The notes under the pieces: model-generated
The model's input: only the letters and a program-made list of their open reading frames with translations
Databases searched by the model: none
Told to the model about the DNA's origin: nothing
Shown: one piece after another, positions 37,147-49,335 of the stretch
Layout: every line of letters begins with the position of its first letter
How positions within the stretch are numbered: position 1 is the stretch's first letter
From: Chloranthus sessilifolius
Lineage: Eukaryota > Streptophyta > Magnoliopsida > Chloranthales > Chloranthaceae
Reading direction: 5' to 3'
Assembly: GCA_021018995.1 (NCBI GenBank)
Contig: CM037586.1
Location: 153,120,060 to 153,184,059 of the forward strand
DNA length: 64,000 nucleotides
Program-made: the position numbers and the translations under genes

Positions 37147-37610
37147 TAGGTCTCTCAATGGGCCGGATTAGGATCGGGTTGGGGTTCAACCCGGCCCTCA
37201 CCTACCTGTGCCGGTTTCCAAATTTTCAACCCCTAACTTTGCGATGTATCTTTTTTTGTTTTTTTCTAATAAAATTTAGTTGGGCTATTTTTTTAAAGCT
37301 ATTTTTTTGGGCTATTCTTTCTAATAAAATTTGGTTGGATATGAGCTGTTTTTTTTCTAATAAAAGTTTGAAGAAAGTTTAAATTTAATTAAATAATTAT
37401 ATTAACATTATAGAGGCTCGGGTACATAATTTTATTCAAATATTTCATTTTAGTTTGTTGCACAATGATTATAACGGACAACAGTTGCACAATAGTTATA
37501 ACAGACAACAGTTGCACAATGATTATAACGAACAACGGTTAATCTCAAGGCGTTTTAAGTAAATTATATTTAATTAAAATGATATTTTTTTTATAACTTT
37601 AAAAGGATAA

Positions 37611-37681
<71 letters not shown>

Positions 37682-37850
37682 AGGGTCGGGTGTTGGAACA
37701 CTCAACCCAAGCCCGGCCCGGATTGATCCAGGTTGCAACATGTTTAGCTACGTTTGAATACCCTACCAGGTTTGCCTGATAGAAAGTACCACTTTTTTCA
37801 AGCCGGGTGGGGGCTAAAATCTTGGCCTGCCTGGCCCATTGAGAGCCCTA
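37147..37850. mobile_element. hAT-type non-autonomous element, copy 1
   Basis: Ends TAGGTCTCTCAATGGGCC and GGCCCATTGAGAGCCCTA are inverted repeats, flanked by perfect 8-bp duplications GTGTTTTG (37139-37146 and 37851-37858). GC-rich subterminal blocks with CCCGGCC repeats surround an AT-rich centre holding an (AT)n run (37612-37679). No transposase. Confidence 0.88.
37612..37679. repeat. (AT)n microsatellite
   Basis: Pure AT run inside the hAT element; the inverted copy has one in the corresponding place (about 48882-48927). Confidence 0.95.
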
Positions 37851-38481: not shown

Positions 38482-38745
38482 TCCATTGTGTGAAAGATTG
38501 GGACAGTTTTAGCTGTTTGGATGGTCGAGACGATGCACCCAAGAGACGCAGAGATTTCAGAGTCTCTTTACAAGTAATTGGTCCCTATGAATTTTGACCC
38601 TCTTTTTTTTTATTTATTTAATAGAATTTTTACCCAATTAAATGGACAACACTAGAAATTGCTCTCATACCTATGAAATTAATTTTTTTTGTTTTTATGT
38701 GCAACAGCTGCACATCGCACATACGAGTCAATAGCGATAAATTTC
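38482..38745. other. Short intergenic stretch left of the MULE
   Basis: Holds the left 9-bp target duplication ATAAATTTC at 38737-38745. Nothing else recognised. Confidence 0.6.
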
Positions 38746-38835
38746 GGAAAATTTACCTAATCGACCCTGTCAGATACACCTTTAACGTATAGTTTCACCT
38801 TTACCCAAACTGACCAGCTCGAAGCCGAGTCAACC
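38746..38835 (+). repeat. Left terminal inverted repeat of the MULE
   Basis: Pairs with 47450-47549. The right arm has about 10 extra bases between TACGT and TAGTTTCACC. Confidence 0.88.
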
Positions 38836-39151
38836 CTAAGGAGAATAAAAAGTCCATATTACCCCTTTCTCTGACTTTCTTTAACCGACGAATACATCCC
38901 CTTCTTCCTCATTTTAATTTTCTAGAGTTAGTAAGAAGTTAGAGCTGGTGAAGTTGACAACGTCTTCTGCCTCAAATCTGCTACCTGGAAGAAGAAACAG
39001 AGGTTTGGGAGAAGAAGCTCCTGCATTTTGCCATTGGGAGTTGAAGATCCTTCAATTTGTCATTCTGACGCGAGGTATGTTCAGATCCAGTGTAAACCTC
39101 ATCGAAAGTTATTTTGAAAAATTAATTTTACTGGGTAAATATATGGAAAGA

Positions 39152-39427
39152 GTCGATAAAGCCTTTATAAACAATCATTATCGACAGTTTAAACGATCGA
39201 TATCGATCGTAAATAAAATCAATATCGATTGTATAGAGAATCGACATCGATTGTAAATAAAATCGATATCAATTGTATAAATAGTCGATAACGATTGATT
39301 ATACAATCGATAACGACTACATAAACAATTGTTATCAACTATTTATACAATCGATATCGATTCTATTTACAATCGATGTCGATTCTCTATGCAATCGATA
39401 TCGATTCTATTTACAATTGATATCGAT
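39152..39427. promoter_or_regulatory. 22-bp array 1 of the MULE (13 units), upstream of the transposase
   Basis: Variants of ATCGATATCGAT spaced exactly 22 bp, with AT-rich 10-bp spacers such as TGTAAATAAA and TCTATTTACA. It ends about 85 bp before the first transposase ATG (39513), a position suited to a promoter or a protein-binding array. Confidence 0.8.
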
Positions 39428-39512
39428 TGTGTATCAGTTTTTTTACTACCAATTTGTCATTTCTTTTTATCATCCGTCTTATGACCCCTTCCTTCTCCTT
39501 CTTAAATAGGCG

Positions 39513-42272
39513 ATGTCTGATGTGAAAATTTTTCTTCTCTATCACTTTGATGGTCATATTGTAAATGATGATGATTTGTATGAAGGTGGTCGCCGGAGGG
39601 TTATTACAATTTCGACGGATATGTCTTATGAACGATTTATATGGCGAATTTTTGTTGTCAGTTTTGCGATGCAAGATGAAACAATTTCTATAAAGTTCTC
39701 TATGAAGATAGTGAATATTCCTATGCTTGTCGACGTTTTGGATTCGGATGATTTGGCCACCCTATTTTCGTTTTATAAATTCGGGTCAGGCATTATAAAG
39801 GTATTCATCATTAAAGAACCATCCTCATTCCGATTCGAAGTTGAACAGGTATCTCTAGGTGGGACTAATTTTGTGAGTAACCATTCTTTCCAGCCATGTA
39901 AGTTTGAGGAGAAAGAACCTACATATGATACCATTCAGTTAGGCGATAACGGCGATTTTGCAGCAAACATATCGACCATGAAGGCAACTATTGATTTAAA
40001 CCATGCCCGAGTTGAATCATATGATGACCCACTATAAATTATGCATGGATCACAACATTGTAGTCAAGAGTTAGACTACATGTCTCTAAGAGTGGGGGAT
40101 GAAGACGATTTTCGTCATATCTTCCCTGGTGGATTCACAACTTGGCTGACTCACGAATTATGTTCTATTATGCCATCAATGGAGATTAACGAAGGAGCTC
40201 AATCCTATTTCCATACACATGAGCACCCTTTCGGTGAAGGGCCTAGTCAACCATGCCAGAACCCGTTCGGTGAAGGGCCTAGTCAACCATGTCATGACAC
40301 ATTCGTGAAAGGCCCAGTCAACCACATCAAAACCCTGCTAGTGAAGAGAACGTCGAAGATTATGATGACGAACCAAATGGATTTATAAAAGAGGATCCGA
40401 AAATTTTTATGAGAGGTATTGATAATCCCTTAGTAGATGGAGCTTACGAAGTGTCAGAGACATCGGACGAGTCTTCCGATCAAGAGGTGAAAATCGAATA
40501 CCGGAATTGGACGTTTGAAGTTGGAAACATCTTCAGAGACAAACAAATATTTCAAAGAGCATTGAAAGAGCACGCGGTGGGCAAAAACTTCCAAATTCGG
40601 CCTTTAAAAATCGCTAGTTATCGAGTGACAGCCGCATGTTACGAAGCCGGTTGTTCATGGTGAATACATGTGTCTAAATTAACTAGGCTCAACACTTTCA
40701 AAATCAAGACTTTCAATAGTACTCACACATGCGGGGCCGCTAAGATCGGGCCGTATGGTCACCGTAATACAACAATCTCCTTCATAGCCAACTATGTACG
40801 GGAGAAATTTATGGAAGGATTCGACTACACCTCAGCGTCGATAATGTTTGATATTGTAAAAGCTTACAATATACAAATCTCATATGCTAAGGCTTTGAGG
40901 GGAAAAGAACTTATCCTTAATGATATTAAAGGCAATTAGAAAGGACAATTTATAAATCTACCAATTTACGTGAAGGAGATGGAGAGGGTAGATCCTAATG
41001 TACAAACATCCTTTCAACTAACGCTTGATGATAAGTTTCAAAGATTTTTTTGGAGTTTCGGCTCGTGCATCGGAAGCTATCGCAATACACTTCGTCGCAC
41101 ACTGCTTGTAGATGGCACACACCTACGGGGACGTTTCGAAGGGATCCTACTTATCGCCCCGGCGCAAGACGGTAATGGCCATATATTACCATTAGCATTT
41201 GTCATCGTCGAGTTAGAAGAAAAGGATACGTGGATGTGATTTCTTTAACGGGTAGGTGCATTTGTGATCGATGAGTTTACCGAAGATTTCTTTTTTATCA
41301 TGGATAGGTCGAAAGGTTTAATTAAGGCGGTGAAATATATCTTCCCTAACGCACACCACAACTACTGCATGTGACATGATACAAAATTTACAGCATAAGT
41401 ATCCCAGGAACAATGTGAAGGGTCTATGGTGGAGTGTCGCGCGTGCATATTCAGTAGAGAGATTTGATTATTTTATTAACGAAATGAAGAAAGATCTTGC
41501 TGATCCTCGGACCGTAGAGTATATTTTAAAAATAGACCCAAAACATTAGGCAATCGCATATATGAAAGGAAGGCAGTACGATTCCCTGACTACAAATAAT
41601 GCTGAAAGCTTGAACTGCGTACTAAAAATAGCTCGAGAGAGACCAATTATCAACCTAATCAGAACTACTAGAGAAAAAGTCGTCGATCATTTCCAAAAGC
41701 GCCGACAGGTATCTGAGAAATGGACCACCCTCCTCTACCCAAAAGCAAATGAGCACATAAAGAAGGTGCTGCAATGGGTCGATAGAAAGAGAGCTCAACC
41801 ATACGAGCGTGATCAATTCTAAGTCAATTTCAAAAATTTTATTCATCACATCGACTTGGAATACAAGACACGTACTTGCCGCCGTTGGCACCTTCATGGC
41901 TTGCCTTGCTCTCATGCCGTTACGGCCATCAATCGGAGAAGTTACGATTACCATAACTTCTGTGAGAAGTGATTTTTCACTACTTATTTTAGACAAACAT
42001 ACGACGAATAATGGCTTCCCACCCTCGATAAAAGCCAAACATACGACGAATAATGGCTTCCCACCCTTGATAAAAGTCAATGGGAATTCCAAGCTGAGCA
42101 ACTGCCTGAAAATATGAAAGTGAGACTACCCTATAATTGTCGAAAGCAAGTCAGCCGTCCGAGAAAGAGAAGGATACGGTCTAAGGGTGAGGTTAGGGCC
42201 TTACAGTGTGGCAGGTACAGTGAGTATGATCACAATCGCAGGAGTTACACGATAGTGGGGTCGATGGGTTGA
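39513..42272 (+). pseudogene. MURA-type (Mutator) transposase, decayed
   Basis: Would cut and join the element ends. Parts in order: N-terminal region of unknown fold (39513-40380), the MuDR-type DNA-binding domain (FRDKQIFQRALKEHAV to AACYEAGCSW, 40500-40662), the MULE DDE domain with VDGTHLRGRFEG (about 41110-41145) and LPLAFVIVELEEKDTW, the SWIM zinc finger CRRWHLHGLPCSHA (about 41876-41917), and a C-terminal remnant of a CCHC knuckle (HNRRSYT, about 42234). Stops occur at 40035 and after GCSW (about 40661), and a frame change near 40300; more stops follow after 41237. A 42-bp tandem duplication at 41994-42077 repeats QTYDE..WLPTLDK. Host-side splicing could hide one or two stops but not all. 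Confidence 0.88.
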
Positions 42273-42431
42273 TACAGTACAAGAAGTTAACTATCTTCAA
42301 CGACAACACCCCACAGTCCATTAGCTATAAATTTGGATGTAATATATACGATGAATTTCTATTATAAATGTAAAGAAGTACATTTTAGTAAAACTTTTAA
42401 GCATTTGTAAAGCGTTTTCTCAGGATAGATA

Positions 42432-42709
42432 GTTGATATCGACTACTTATACAATCGCTATCGACTACGTATACAATTTATGTCGATTGTATAAGTAGTC
42501 GATATCGACTGTATAAGCAGTCGATATCGATTGTATAAGCAATCGTTATCGACTGCATAAAAAATCGTTAATGACTTCTTTTACAATCGATATCAATTAT
42601 ATACGCAGTCGATATCGATTTATTAAGCAGTCGATATCGGCTGCTTATACAGTCGATATCGATTGTAAAAGCACTCGTTATGTACTCTCTCTATATAGTC
42701 GATATGACT
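42432..42709. promoter_or_regulatory. 22-bp array 2 of the MULE (13 units), between the two genes
   Basis: Motif GTCGATATCGA(C/T) with spacers such as TGTATAAGCA; all intervals are 22 bp except the last (24 bp). It lies between the 3' ends of the convergent genes. Confidence 0.8.
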
Positions 42710-43298
42710 GTCAATATGGTCTGCGACACGCCCAAAACCAGCCTATTGTTTCATTTTTGAATATTCACCAGATATATTTTTATATACTTGAGATTACAAG
42801 TTTCCAAAATAAGTTCAATATTACAAAAATTGAAATTTTCATTTACAAATTTCGATGTATGTTTTGCTTACAACTAAATATAATTTTAACTTATGAAAAA
42901 AATTAAGGTGGTGCATCAGTAGTAGGTTCTACATTGGTATCTTTCTCCGCTTCTCCATCGACAGTGAATTTAGTAAGGGCTTGATCAATTTCTGCCCTGA
43001 TCTGACTCATTACTTTGGCTGAAGTCAAATTTCTTCCCCGCCATAAAGTACTCTATGTACTTCAAAACAAACATCCCACAGTCCCACCCATTGCTCTGTC
43101 GGGGTACCGATTTGATCCTGTAATCAGAACTTGACCACGGATAGATCTCAGCGTTCAATGCAGTGGAGTCTCCATATATATGTAAAAGCGCGGGTAGGTA
43201 TTTGGTCTGTTTTGAAAAGTGCAATGTCAGATAAGATAAGCATACAGTAAAATTTTTTACCACTATCAGAATTTTCTAAGATTTCGACTGTTAATACA

Positions 43299-43432
43299 GT
43301 CAATATCGACTGTCAAAACAGTCATATAAGCAGTCGACATCGACTATCTAGGCAATCGTTAGCGACTGTCTAGACAATCGATAGCAACTATATAAGAAAT
43401 CGGTAACGACTGCTTATGCAGTCGTAAACATA
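43299..43432. promoter_or_regulatory. 22-bp array 3 of the MULE (about 6-7 units)
   Basis: Sits between the Cys-site exon and the His/Asp-site exon of the protease gene. One interval is irregular. Confidence 0.75.
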
Positions 43433-44027
43433 GTCAAATAAAATAAATCAAAATTGAAATTTTATAATTCGTAAGTATAGATAATTCTTACCAGGACGTT
43501 CATTTGGACAGGATACTTCTCTTTAGAGGGCCTATCCAAAATAGGGTCAACGATCATTACCGATTGTTCTAAAACCTTAACGATCGCAAGCGCCCAATGT
43601 AATGGACCGTGACTATGGACTGGGACAAATATCTGAAATGAATATTATATTAGAGGATACAACGGTAAAAATTATAAAAAAAGTTTACAGAGATCGTAAT
43701 GTACTGTGTTACATTGGTGAGCCCACAAATCCCTCAACCTATTGAAGAAAAAGTTTTAGAATACCTTTTTGCCTGGGTTAGCTGCTTCCTTAATGAGAGC
43801 CCACCGTTCGATTTGCGTGGCCAATGATTGGTCGTTGAGCTTTTCAAATTCAATAAAGAATTTGAAATCATTATAATTTATAGTCATATAGGACAAACCG
43901 GTGGGGCTCATAAGAAAGCATTTATCCATTACCTTAGGATGAGCAATGTCATCAATGACTTTCAAAAGTCTTAGGTAGCCTCCCAAAATCAGAATGAAAT
44001 TTTTTTTAATAATCGACTATATAGAAA

Positions 44028-44237
44028 ATTGTTATCGATTCTGTACACAATCAATATCGATGGTTAAGACAATCGTTAACGATTGTTAATACAGTCGATA
44101 TCGACTGTTAAGAGAATCGATAACGATTGTTAATACAGTCGTTATCAACTGTTAAGGCAATCAATGTTGATTGTTAATACAGTCGTTATCGACTGTTAAG
44201 GCAATCGGTGTCGATTGTTTAAACAATCGCTAACGAC
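44028..44237. promoter_or_regulatory. 22-bp array 4 of the MULE (10 units)
   Basis: Motif starts at 44028, 44050, 44072 and so on to 44226, every interval 22 bp. Spacers are mostly TGTTAATACA or TGTTAAGGCA. Confidence 0.82.
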
Positions 44238-44996
44238 TATCTATGCAATCATTTTTGTTTGGTTAAGCAATCGTAATTCTGAGAAAACATGAACATAAAA
44301 TAGCATCACTGAAAAGAATTAAGAATTAAATATGTGAGATTTAGTTACTTACAATATTGTCTAAGTGTCCCTGGCCTTCCAAACATTTGAATGTATGCAT
44401 TCGGAGTGTATAATCACCCACGGTGCTTACGTAGGTGCTGCATAAAACATAACGGTCAAAAGTTTAAATTTAAAATCGAAATTAACTACTAACTGACAAC
44501 TAACTATCATAAAAAAAAATAGATAAATTACGAAAATAAGTAACTTACTCGGCATCCTTTTCGGGAGCTGTCCATATGGCATTCATGAACGTCTGCTCAT
44601 CTGTCAGCTCATCCGTAGCAGAAGGCATCGTCTCGGTTGCAAATTTTTTTACCGCCTACTTTCTTTCGGTCCTAGGCTTCCAGGCAATTTATTTTACTTT
44701 AATCATAGGCCTCAAGCGAGCGTCGAATGGCTGCTCGGGTTGTTCATCACCAGCCGGACCACCCTTATCATCATGATCATGGGGTCGGTTGTCAGCTGTT
44801 GCCACCTCCTCTTGCGTGGGAGAAGGTAGTCCCATATCAGCTGATCCCTGGTCTGCTGGACCAGCAAATTCTGGTCCCATATCAGCAGTGAGAGACACAT
44901 CCGATAATAACTTCGAAACAGCACCATCCTGAACACAGAAAGAAATAAAATCGATAAATAGCCAGATATGAGAGAATAGATATGACCTCTAAACCA

Positions 44997-45140
44997 ATTT
45001 ATATCGACTCTAAAACCAATCGATATCGACTCTACAAACAATCGATATCGATTGTAATTGTAATCGGTATCGACTGTAAATACAATCGTTATCAATTGTC
45101 AATTCAATCGTTAATGATTGTATTTACAATCGATACTAAA
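44997..45140. promoter_or_regulatory. 22-bp array 5 of the MULE (7 units)
   Basis: Starts at 44997 with 22-bp steps to 45129, just downstream (minus sense) of the coiled-coil exon. Confidence 0.8.
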
Positions 45141-45913
45141 TGCAATCGATACAGATTTAATAAATAATCGAAATAAATTAAAGCAGACTACATTACGACT
45201 CATACCTTGGGTGTCACCTCCAAGATCGTCTGAAGGAGTTCTATAATTTTTCCTTGCTCCTTCCAGATCACCTTGTTGAAATGATTCGCCATTTGCAATT
45301 GTACATCCCTTGAAATGAGCCGGTCATCAAAAGAGGTGCATCGTGTCCGGAGGAGCTTATTCTCTTCCACCAACTGCTTATTCCCTTCCACCAATTGGTT
45401 CACTAACTCTTCCAAATTGCTCACTTTTTGGTTGAGTTTCAAGTTTTCCAACTCCATACCGTCAATCCTCCTCAACAACTTTTGATTAGAGGAGGTTGGT
45501 GTGCTGCCGGTTGTCTTTGCGGCGTCCCTTCTAGGCCGGTTAAATTGGACGGGGACGTCTTCTGACGACAAGTTTTCGTCAGACGTTGTTTCGTCCTCAA
45601 ACTTTTCCTCGTCAACCTCTTTGACAGGAATATAATTCCTTTTCTTCGTGGGCCGCAAAGCAAATTCCACAACTTTCTTGACCACTTCAACCTCTTTCCT
45701 CTTCCCCTCAATCTTTCCCTCAATAGCCTTTCGACCTCACTGATAATCCCTTACGAGGGGTATCTCCAACTCGAAGAAAACAGGTTCGAGGGGGGCATAA
45801 ATCTGTTACAACAAAGGACAGGTTGTAAAATAATATAGCAATATTACAGAGAAAATTGAACAATCACTGCAGTATATCGGCTGCTTAAAGAGTCTATACC
45901 GATTTCACTTACA

Positions 45914-46057
45914 GTCAATAATGATAGTGTAGGAAGTCGATGTCGATTGTGTAGGAAGTCGATACCGACTGCATAGGAAGTCGATACCGATTGCGTAGGC
46001 AGTCGACACCGACAGTGTAGGCAGTCGATACCGACTGCATAGGCAATCAATATCGAC
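45914..46057. promoter_or_regulatory. 22-bp array 6 of the MULE (7 units)
   Basis: A GC-richer variant, GTCGATACCGAC, with spacers such as TGCATAGGAA; steps of 22 bp from 45914 to 46046. It lies between the DUF1985 and coiled-coil parts. Confidence 0.8.
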
Positions 46058-47049
46058 TAATTTGGTAGTCAGAATCTTACAATTTACTCTTTAAAGTCCT
46101 TCCAAATTTATCTTTACAAATTTGAAGTATTTAAAACGACATCATACCTTGCTGTCCAGCATCTTCTCAAGAGTGTAGCCTTTCGTCGTCGTTTGCGGCT
46201 TCTCCGCCTACTTCAACAATCAGAGGAAAGGGTTTACCATGGACGTTCTTTGAGGTGAGATGTCAGACAGCATCTCATAAACCCACCATTATAGTACACA
46301 CATACAGCCATAAGTATTATACAGCTTAAGGGCTTTATCGTTGTCAGCAGTCTTTCTATTTGTCACGCCCTTCTTTATATACTCCAGCAAGTCATTGAAC
46401 ATGTAGAGACCCCCACGGAGTTTGTTTGAAGTTCTCTACGGCATCGATGAGTTCAATGTGGTCTTCCGACACTTGATGGTAAGACCCGGGAAAAAGAAAT
46501 GTACACAGAATAAATAGAAGAGTCAACTTGACGAAGTCGTCATCACTTTCCGCTAGCCTCAATCCATTTTCTATATGAGACCGAATAATTTTTTCGATCG
46601 ATAGTCCACGAAAATATTTGTATCGAATGATTTCCTTTTCAAGTGGTTTATTGGAAGGGGAATACTATTGGGGTTCAACCACCACAAGACCCAGTATTAA
46701 GGCAATGTCCATCTTCCGAAGATAGACATCTCTCTTCTCGATTCGGAAGTGGTTCTTATTTACCCAAAAACTCAACATGACATCGACAACATATCTAACA
46801 AAACTAACACCCTTTGGCATTTAGAATATTATCCCAAAAATTGATGCCCTTAGCAACTCCTTCCGTTGCGGGCTAGCGTCCTCATAAACTTTCGAAATAC
46901 CAGTAGGCGAACATTTGCCAACAGCCCGCTGTACAATCATCTTGACTGCTTCTGTATATGAAATTTAATAAAATTGAAAGGCATGACTCATATACTAAAA
47001 GAGATTATTTATAATCAGGCTAGATAAAAAATCACCGATTATGCATACA

Positions 47050-47171
47050 ATCGATATCGATTGTACATACAATCGTCATCGATTGTTAATGCGATCGATA
47101 ACGATTGTGCATACAATCGTCATTGATTGTATATACAATCGTTATCGATCGCATTAACAATCGATGACGAT
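47050..47171. promoter_or_regulatory. 22-bp array 7 of the MULE (6 units), upstream of the protease gene
   Basis: Steps of 22 bp from 47050 to 47160 between the first recognised DUF1985 exon (about 46965) and the right terminal inverted repeat. This is the likely 5' or promoter side of the minus-strand gene. Confidence 0.8.
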
Positions 47172-47449
47172 CGTGTTGGAAACCGTATGATAAAGAAAAT
47201 TAATTCAAAACATAGACCATAGAAAGGAGAATAAAAAATTCTACAGAAATGGAAGGTAATTTAATTTCTAACTTACTGCTTTGGTAGGTTGAAAATTCAA
47301 AAACGAAGCGCCAGTGACTACAAATCGACACCGCCTCTCCACCGACGTCGAACGAAAAAGGAAAAAATAAAAAAGGTAAATTGAAAAGATTTGACTAAAG
47401 GATGGCTATTTATTAACTTGGGAGTAATTTCGATATTTCAAAAGGCGGG

Positions 47450-47549
47450 CGACGGCTCGGCGTGCAATGGGTCGGTTTGAGTAAAGGTGAAACTACAAGG
47501 CCTCTGACGTAAAAAGTGTATCTGACAAGGTCGGTAAGGTAAATTTCCC
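47450..47549 (-). repeat. Right terminal inverted repeat of the MULE
   Basis: Pairs with 38746-38835. The right 9-bp target duplication follows at 47550-47558. Confidence 0.88.
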
Positions 47550-47596
47550 ATAAATTTCTGCGAGTGGGCAAATGGGTGAGATTTAAACTAGGAACC

Positions 47597-47825
47597 ATGG
47601 GTCAAAATATCGTCCGATACCGATATGTATCGGACGATACGTATCGGTATTGGACTAGGACGATACAGTACATTGATGTACCGTATCGTCCAATATGTAT
47701 GGGAAGGCCTGGACGATACATTCAATGTATCGTCCGGTAAGTTACTATTCCGATACATATCGTCCGATACGTATCTGTTTGGAGCTCGGACGATACATAT
47801 CGGAAACGCAAGATTTTGACCCTTG
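47597..47825. mobile_element. Mutator-type MITE built of GTATCG/CGATAC palindromes
   Basis: Ends GGGTCAAAAT and ATTTTGACCC, flanked by perfect 9-bp duplications CTAGGAACC (47588-47596 and 47826-47834). The 229-bp interior is a string of short inverted repeats around ATCGTCCGATAC and its complement. It starts 38 bp after the MULE's right target duplication. Confidence 0.85.
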
Positions 47826-48711: not shown

Positions 48712-48880
48712 TAGGGCTCTCAATGGGTCAGGTTGGCCCGGATTTTGGCCCACACTCGGCCCAGAAAAAAGTAGTACTTTCTATCAATCAAACCCGGCCC
48801 GATATCCGGTTCGGAATAAACATGTTGCAACCTGGATAAATCCGGACCAGGCTTCGGTTGAGTGTTCCAACACCATACCC

Positions 48881-48928
<48 letters not shown>

Positions 48929-49335
48929 TTATCCTTTTAAAATTATAAAAAAATTTTCTTTTAATTAAATATAATTTACTTGAATGCCCTGAGATTAATC
49001 ATTGTCCGTTATAATCATTGTGCAACAAACTAAAATGAAATATTTGTATAAAATCATGTACCTGAGCTTCTATAATGTTAATATAATTATTTAATTAAAT
49101 TTTTAACCTTCTTCAAACTTTTATTAGAAAAAAAAAGTTTAAACCCAACCAAATTTTATTAGTAAAAAAAAGCTCAACAAATGCCCAAGCTCGGCCCGAC
49201 CCGAGGGGCCGGGTTTGGACTGGGTACATCGCAGCCCGACTTAGGACCGGGTTGAAAATTTTGGCAACCCGGCCCGAGTACATTAGGGCCGGATTGAGCC
49301 CCTGCCGACCCTAATCCGGTCCATTGAAAGCCCCA
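48712..49335. mobile_element. hAT-type non-autonomous element, copy 2 (inverted)
   Basis: Same family as 37147-37850 in opposite orientation. Ends TAGGGCTCTCAATGGG and CCATTGAAAGCCCCA. The 8-bp flanks ACTACGAG and TCTAGAAG only partly agree, so this copy looks older. It contains an (AT)n run at about 48882-48927. Confidence 0.78.

Follow-up and report, generated by a model that had tools for sequence, protein, structure and literature searches.

A Mutator-like element of Chloranthus sessilifolius with 22-bp-phased dyad arrays, candidate binding platforms for its own DUF1985-Ulp1 protein

A dead but complete Mutator-like element (MULE) of 8804 bp occupies positions 38746-47549 of a 64-kb stretch of the Chloranthus sessilifolius genome (hereafter the window: 64,000 nucleotides of GenBank assembly GCA_021018995.1, contig CM037586.1, positions 153,120,060 to 153,184,059, forward strand). 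The element encodes a transposase on the plus strand and a multi-exon DUF1985-Ulp1 gene on the minus strand, with convergent 3' ends, and contains seven arrays of a short palindromic motif repeated every 22 bp. It is flanked by a perfect 9-bp target-site duplication, ATAAATTTC, at 38737-38745 and 47550-47558. Inside this are terminal inverted repeats (TIRs) at 38746-38830 (plus strand) and 47465-47549 (minus strand), which match at 37 of the 43 terminal bp and have approximate inner borders. A MURA-like transposase, terminal repeats and a target duplication of 9-11 bp are the marks of a MULE, and all three are present. The TIR pattern (up to 2 mismatches) has 2445 matches in the 2.17 Gb genome searched; a reversed-pattern control has none.

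Array 1 (39174-39427) lies upstream of the transposase and is a near-palindrome as a whole. Array 2 (42432-42663) lies between the 3' ends of the convergent genes. The introns of the DUF1985-Ulp1 gene, whose coding parts we label A to H, hold the other five. Array 3 (43333-43410, with an outlying unit at 43299) is inside intron G-H (43207-43491, GT-AG borders), and array 4 (44028-44237) is in the intron between exon E2 (donor at 44352) and exon F. The donor of this intron is intact; its acceptor is altered in the window copy and intact in the sister locus L011. Arrays 5 (44997-45118, with off-phase units at 45145 and 45167, to 45178), 6 (45892-46057) and 7 (47050-47171) are in GT-AG introns on the minus strand: D-E (44929-45205), C-D (45803-46147) and the 5' intron (46952-47276), respectively.

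A first-pass annotation had reported seven arrays of about 63 units at these places, stepping by 22 bp almost throughout and absent from exons. All seven arrays are present where it put them, and counting phased positions between matches we find 57 units plus three outliers, in close agreement. Steps are 22 bp or multiples of it, except for 34 (the outlier of array 3) and 38 (array 5). Lags of 22, 44 and 66 are the top three in each of the seven arrays, which is not so in the transposase, exon D or the DUF1985 exon. With up to 2 mismatches, the 12-mer ATCGATATCGAT occurs 36 times in the arrays and only 3 times in the rest of the window, whereas 30 control sequences of element length, generated by a first-order Markov model, contain 1.07 on average and never more than 3. 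Allowing 3 mismatches raises the count in the arrays to 56, against a control mean of 8.9 and a maximum of 17. The overlap of coding parts with any array is zero. The annotation had also stated that arrays fill the non-coding gaps of the element. This holds insofar as all seven lie in such gaps, but the short gap between exons F and G (about 115-180 bp) has none.

The transposase gene (39510-42272, plus strand) is broken by stops and frame changes. Pfam matches cover the DBD_Tnp_Mut, MULE and SWIM domains, with 30.4 bits for PF03108 (cut-off 25), 24.5 bits for PF04434 (cut-off 19.6) and 25.3 bits for the MULE domain PF10551, slightly under its cut-off of 27.6. Also present in this coding region are two tandem duplications, at 40225-40324 (36-bp unit, 2.8 copies) and 41994-42080 (42-bp unit, 2.1 copies).

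From N to C terminus, the product of the minus-strand gene has a DUF1985-type domain, a coiled-coil-like middle and an Ulp1 (C48) domain. The DUF1985-type domain is encoded by exon A-C (46148-46951, minus strand), which is broken in the window copy; a piece of it matches PF09331 with 26.8 bits. This Pfam family is matched by seven of nine family members at E up to 0.01, and a profile of the family matches DUF1985 proteins of other loci in the same genome (98.7%, E 1.6e-16) that score over Pfam's cut-off. Compared with solved structures, the DUF1985 profile has no credible relative (best E 0.7). Exon D (45206-45802, minus strand) is coiled-coil-like, with a sub-cut-off best match to a coiled-coil family (E 0.0017). 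It is fast evolving: its alignments to subfamilies B and C (the labels A, B and C were assigned here by similarity) span 0.37-0.60 of its length at 67-68% DNA identity. The Ulp1-type domain is encoded on the minus strand by exon G (43492-43644, 5' border approximate), which contains HWALAIV, and exon H (42985-43206, to the exon border), which contains QSNGWDCG. PF02902 is matched with 23.3 bits on 43462-43644 and 37 bits on 42985-43275, and the region matches the SENP2 chain of PDB (E 6.7e-07). The sequence includes HW, D and Q-DCG, which we take to be the catalytic residues of the C48 domain.

The 22-bp phase extends to the genome as a whole. Perfect 12-mer pairs lying 0-30 bp apart number 699 genome-wide, and 648 of them have exactly 10 bp between their members, which is the 22-bp step. 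We sampled 50 of these 648 places, on contig C1 from 1.97 to 137.67 Mb, and obtained 33 loci, of which 20 were examined over at most 10 kb and 13 over 4 kb. Because the loci were picked by a perfect motif pair, on one contig of one genome, the sample favours array-rich copies, and copies without arrays could not turn up in it.

The unit, derived from 959 phased units of 21 loci, has the skeleton R-TCG-N-TA-N-CGA-Y-T-NNN-TA-NNN-A, or RTCGNTANCGAY-T-NNN-TA-NNN-A. It combines the dyad RTCG-N-TA-N-CGAY with a second, T-NNN-TA-NNN-A, exactly 11 bp away. In the position weight matrix, positions 2-4 (TCG), 6-7 (TA), 9-11 (CGA), 13 (T), 17-18 (TA) and 22 (A) are constrained, and positions 5, 8, 14-16 and 19-21 are much freer. 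The distance between neighbouring units is 22 bp 669 times, 44 bp 60 times and 66 bp 14 times; the next commonest step, 21, is seen 9 times. Two dyads 11 bp apart within a 22-bp unit fit a symmetric, probably dimeric protein. Among 791 distinct units, the free core positions 5 and 8 pair in a fraction of 0.407, compared to 0.440 expected (z -2.4), and positions 1 and 12 show z 0.8. The missing covariation speaks against base pairing, whether in RNA or in cruciforms, as what constrains the core, and points instead to two half-sites recognised by a protein. Linker positions do pair (14/21, z 8.9; 16/19, z 6.1). This covariation stems at least partly from subfamily differences and the relatedness of units; mutual information at distance 22 indicates that adjoining linkers are alike.

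Folding is relevant to the idea that transcribed arrays act as RNA, with hairpins from palindromic units feeding small-RNA production or affecting splicing. The arms of array 1 (39190-39309 and 39314-39433) are 120 bp long and 88% complementary, and together form a near-palindrome of about 240 bp with mirrored linkers. As RNA this array has a minimum free energy of -137.3 kcal/mol, with a z of -20.3 relative to dinucleotide shuffles, and array 4 has a z of -10.2, as hairpin formation would predict. However, any array of palindromes folds well. When arrays of 6-14 exactly phased units are compared with shuffles of their own units, 15 of 103 still have z < -2 and five have z < -3, but the median is only -0.48, and in the window array 1 alone of six eligible arrays falls below -2. 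Given also that the free core positions lack compensatory change, though linkers pair, we consider a function as RNA decidedly unlikely. Since array 1 is near-palindromic and 15 of 103 arrays outfold their unit shuffles, inverted duplication is probably part of how some arrays grow, and not a general feature.

Parts of the same MULE family, along with arrays, were identified at all 33 loci. For L023 and L029 the family assignment is by TIR and 5' stretch alone, and L022 has transposase parts and one array, with no TIR at first look. We scored each gap by 12-mer matches with up to 3 mismatches, omitting missing cells and the negative gaps of L016, L018, L020 and L024; the G-H gap of L006 (-15, from overlapping matches) was scored as adjacent. 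In 16 of 16 scorable loci the 900 bp preceding the transposase hold at least 3 units, and in 16 of 16 at least 4 units lie between the two genes. Gaps F-E, E-D and D-C have at least 4 units in 10 of 10, 10 of 10 and 11 of 11 scorable loci. Of the 15 loci in which the 5' flank of the DUF1985 exon is in view, 14 have an array of at least 3 units there; L020 is the sole exception. The F-G gap has no array, and a single unit in one of 15 scored loci. Intron G-H carries 5-8 units in all six scored subfamily-A loci (the window, L011, L015, L017, L019 and L021), and L024 also shows this intron. In the ten other scored loci exons G and H are at most 115 bp apart, with no unit between them. Unit numbers per gap vary between copies, and in most copies arrays lie near both element ends. 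Coding sequence contains 15 motif matches (up to 2 mismatches) in 66.1 kb, compared to 713 in 100.2 kb of other sequence.

Thus, the claim of a single phased motif distributed through the non-coding gaps of a MULE, in contrast to a satellite at one site, extends to the sister loci, where placement is kept gap by gap. Two observations that would have told against it are absent from this motif-selected sample: there is no sister element lacking arrays (only the 5' array of L020 is missing) and no array outside MULEs, all 33 sampled loci belonging to this family. An ordinary satellite in element-independent blocks is rejected for the same reason, as far as these 50 places on C1 represent the 648.

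DUF1985 exons of subfamily A (L017 and L024) differ from those of six other loci by dS 0.58-1.22, with dN/dS 0.18-0.38 (12 pairs); this exon is under long-term purifying selection. The closest exon pairs have dN/dS 0.55-1.07, as in dead copies. Eight unit-free internal non-coding segments align to 2-6 of six other A copies, to none of five B copies and to at most one of five C copies; three further segments of 26-80 bp align to no A copy and are uninformative. The TIR-adjoining segments, the 5' exon region and the stretch that separates array 1 from the transposase do align to all five B copies. The arrays of A, B and C, taken apart, have a common skeleton. Arrays, step and placement are thus kept while most other internal non-coding sequence has diverged past detection between subfamilies. 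Positions 14 and 21, which face each other across the second dyad, differ between subfamilies: their commonest bases are G/C in A, A/T in B and C/T, which are not complementary, in C. In its MULE domain the window element is 88% identical (DNA) to B and 86% to A, whereas its DUF1985 exon C is nearer A (86%) than B (74%). Either fast DUF1985 evolution or exchange between subfamilies may lie behind this discord.

These comparisons bear on a simpler explanation, that the arrays are a neutral, functionless minisatellite that expands through slippage and inverted duplication at sites where the element can tolerate it, namely introns and spacers. Such growth would account for the varying unit numbers in the same gap, the likeness of adjoining linkers and the inverted arrangement of array 1. 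It would also suit the rate of change at non-CpG array sites, which in 16 partial copies is about 1.7 times that of other non-coding sites. It does not readily explain why the skeleton survives at dS of about 0.9 while other internal non-coding sequence is lost, nor a step of exactly 22 in 648 of 699 pairs. In the sample the arrays are, moreover, confined to one TIR family, despite 4046 DUF1985 and 4408 transposase loose candidates (150 of each scored). We therefore regard neutrality as quite unlikely. Among 5 full-length copies, CpG transitions affect 18 of 767 constrained array sites, 55 of 1713 other non-coding sites (p 0.30) and 89 of 1975 coding sites (p 0.008), a comparison that is circular to the extent that the constrained positions were derived from the same units. 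The CpG and non-CpG rates indicate that the core is better conserved than the remainder of the array.

Some TIR elements of this lineage have no detected gene. L025 (about 1.1 kb) and L026 (about 0.7 kb) contain mostly CA-centred units. Their top lag is 22 and they have 6 and 4 strict skeletons, compared to control means of 0.05 and 0.04, with no chain of the 12-mer. L027 (about 2.8 kb) has four chains of the 12-mer but shows no enrichment of the strict skeleton RTCGN4CGAY (1 occurrence, control maximum 1). L023, a gene-poor copy with one 5' stretch only, has three 12-mer chains. The CA-centred pair pattern has 1287 matches in the genome and none for the reversed control. CA-type pairs also occur within L011, L015, L017 and L036, so TA- and CA-centred motifs coexist in the TIR lineage, and a clean co-evolution of motif and protein is not established. 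At G000:C1:4888619-4889045 and in like clusters, CA-centred units are mirrored on both strands within about 430 bp. These are perhaps a family of short foldback non-autonomous elements.

On the whole we think it probable, if not strongly so, that the element's own DUF1985-Ulp1 protein binds the arrays, which would serve as dense platforms under selection at the DNA level. Speaking for this are the exact step, the skeleton common to subfamilies A, B and C, the arrays that persist where unit-free segments no longer align, the scarcity of motif matches in coding sequence, the DUF1985 homology, the selection on the DUF1985 exon and the units kept by copies with no detected gene. We hold this to be the most likely reading because the VANC system of Arabidopsis VANDAL elements is the closest known likeness. 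The DUF1985-Ulp1 protein would bind the unit, binding would counter silencing, and the Ulp1 protease may take part. A symmetric, probably dimeric protein (exon D being coiled-coil-like) would occupy units that all face the same side of the helix, and the two-turn distance between neighbours would favour cooperative loading. Once bound ahead of the transposase, within introns and between the two genes, it would remove or block silencing marks along the full length of the element. The effect would be limited to array-bearing copies, gene-less ones included, and the Ulp1 domain might take SUMO off silencing factors at the platform.

A bolder version, which we consider rather unlikely, treats the 22-bp phase as a polymerisation code. 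Dimers of the DUF1985-Ulp1 protein would line up next to one another on a single helix face, spread as a nucleosome-excluding filament along each array and bring the SUMO protease to every silenced segment, introns included. The arrays would then constitute a distributed self-recognition barcode in DNA that the element's proteins do not need, and new introns would perhaps be born with or from arrays. Intron G-H was observed only together with its array.

The arrays might instead bind the transposase, or a second element protein of TnpA type, for end preparation in transposition and for promoter regulation, as subterminal repeats do. The dyad motif suits a multimeric transposase, the proximity of arrays to both ends of most copies fits end binding, and the short copies L025, L026 and L027, which need mobilisation in trans, keep units. 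However, five of the seven arrays of the window element are intronic, and four of these five lie far from its ends, where end binding has no use. The transposase is also conserved between subfamilies, as the MULE domain illustrates, yet linker positions 14/21 differ. We judge this alternative unlikely. The TnpA protein of En/Spm binds a repeated short subterminal motif and is also linked to demethylation. En/Spm belongs to another superfamily, and its sites cluster at the ends, not in introns.

Very unlikely, in our assessment, is the recruitment of a host DNA-binding protein (an activator, insulator or nucleosome-excluding factor) that keeps promoters and introns open. Array 1, ahead of the transposase, and array 7, in the 5' intron of the DUF1985-Ulp1 gene, are well placed for this, and helically phased TCG/CGA half-sites around a TA dyad are compatible with many dimeric factors. 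Against it, no host target with such arrays appeared among the sampled loci, all 33 being this MULE family, and a host factor alone does not explain the subfamily differences at 14/21.

Returning to the element's own protein as binder, several observations weigh against that interpretation. The DUF1985 scores of the MULE family (26.8 and 28.4 bits) are under the curated cut-off of 35.1. The N-terminal domain of L011 (1205-2029) matches DUF1985 with 28.4 bits and Plant mobile domain with 26.5 bits, both sub-cut-off, and Plant mobile domain also matches two of nine other family members; given the almost equal scores in L011, the two Pfam families may be related. DUF287, the second VANC domain, has no match in the gene pieces scanned, which do not cover a whole intact protein, and a protein search found no homologues in other organisms. 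Three stretches of 4.4-4.5 kb downstream of canonical DUF1985 domains elsewhere have neither such units nor a 22-bp period, although those domains are homologous to the one in this family. DUF1985 alone therefore does not entail arrays, and as far as these three one-sided controls tell, arrays are a property of this TIR lineage. CpG decay lends no support to hypomethylation of the arrays relative to the element's other non-coding DNA: in the 16 partial copies, CpG transitions amount to 39/1111 (3.5%) in arrays and 41/1164 (3.5%) in other non-coding sequence (p 1.0). Coding DNA has more than the arrays, 31/524 (5.9%, p 0.035), and the 5 full-length copies show the same tendency. The binder could be the transposase or a host factor instead.

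The likeness to VANDAL21/VANC21 and VANDAL6/VANC6 of Arabidopsis, as described in two reports, is in general organization. Both there and here a MULE combines a conserved transposase with a faster-evolving DUF1985 gene, and family-enriched short tandem motifs occur in noncoding regions, in introns and upstream of the transposase. VANC proteins, in which DUF287 is named beside DUF1985 as a domain, bind short motifs that are tandemly repeated in noncoding DNA, including introns, and remove silencing in their own VANDAL family; target motifs differ between families (PMC5735166, PMC10398659). VANC21 has a directional motif, YAGTATTAY, whose copies in an array all point the same way, and VANDALs have degenerate TIRs (PMC5735166, PMC10398659). 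Here, in contrast, the motif is a dyad at a strict 22-bp step, and the TIRs are clear. One gene joins DUF1985 to an Ulp1 protease domain. Orientation is not uniform either: the unit is a dyad, the arms of array 1 are inverted, and the CA-centred variant occurs on both strands of one cluster. We do not file the element as a VANDAL because of its clear TIRs, its dyad, non-directional motif and the DUF287 not seen in the pieces scanned. Relative to the VANC system as described, the differences lie in the TIRs, the dyad motif and the strict phasing.

A gene with an Ulp1 C48 domain is also carried by Kaonashi (KIU) MULEs. According to a review, KIU genes are Ulp1-carrying VANC genes that act alike on related elements, and the elements are described as non-TIR MULEs (PMC13317346), unlike the TIR-bearing element here. 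Short interrupted repeat cassettes of Arabidopsis transposons are short repeats in MITEs, with matches in a VANDAL3 copy; they are direct repeats with unrelated spacers, and the available text mentions no fixed 22-bp phase (PMC10342631). A 22-bp array of the present kind was not found described in the open-licence literature.

If the element's protein does bind the arrays, sequence-specific self-recognition by MULE DUF1985 proteins would not be tied to VANDALs with degenerate TIRs and directional motifs, and a TIR-bearing lineage would read a phased dyad motif. Phase and symmetry would specify a code, open to direct test, by which a DUF1985 protein reads DNA, and the 648 exact perfect-motif pairs in one genome offer many natural variants.

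Just outside the element, a patch at 47613-47820 has many CGATAC/GTATCG-like imperfect palindromes without the 22-bp step. Also identified, beyond the target duplication, are two flanking pairs of inverted repeats, at 37381-37481 and 49002-49102 (96% complementary) and at 37599-37746 and 48817-48964 (84% complementary), with TA microsatellites. The MULE appears to have inserted into an older element that had inverted repeats.

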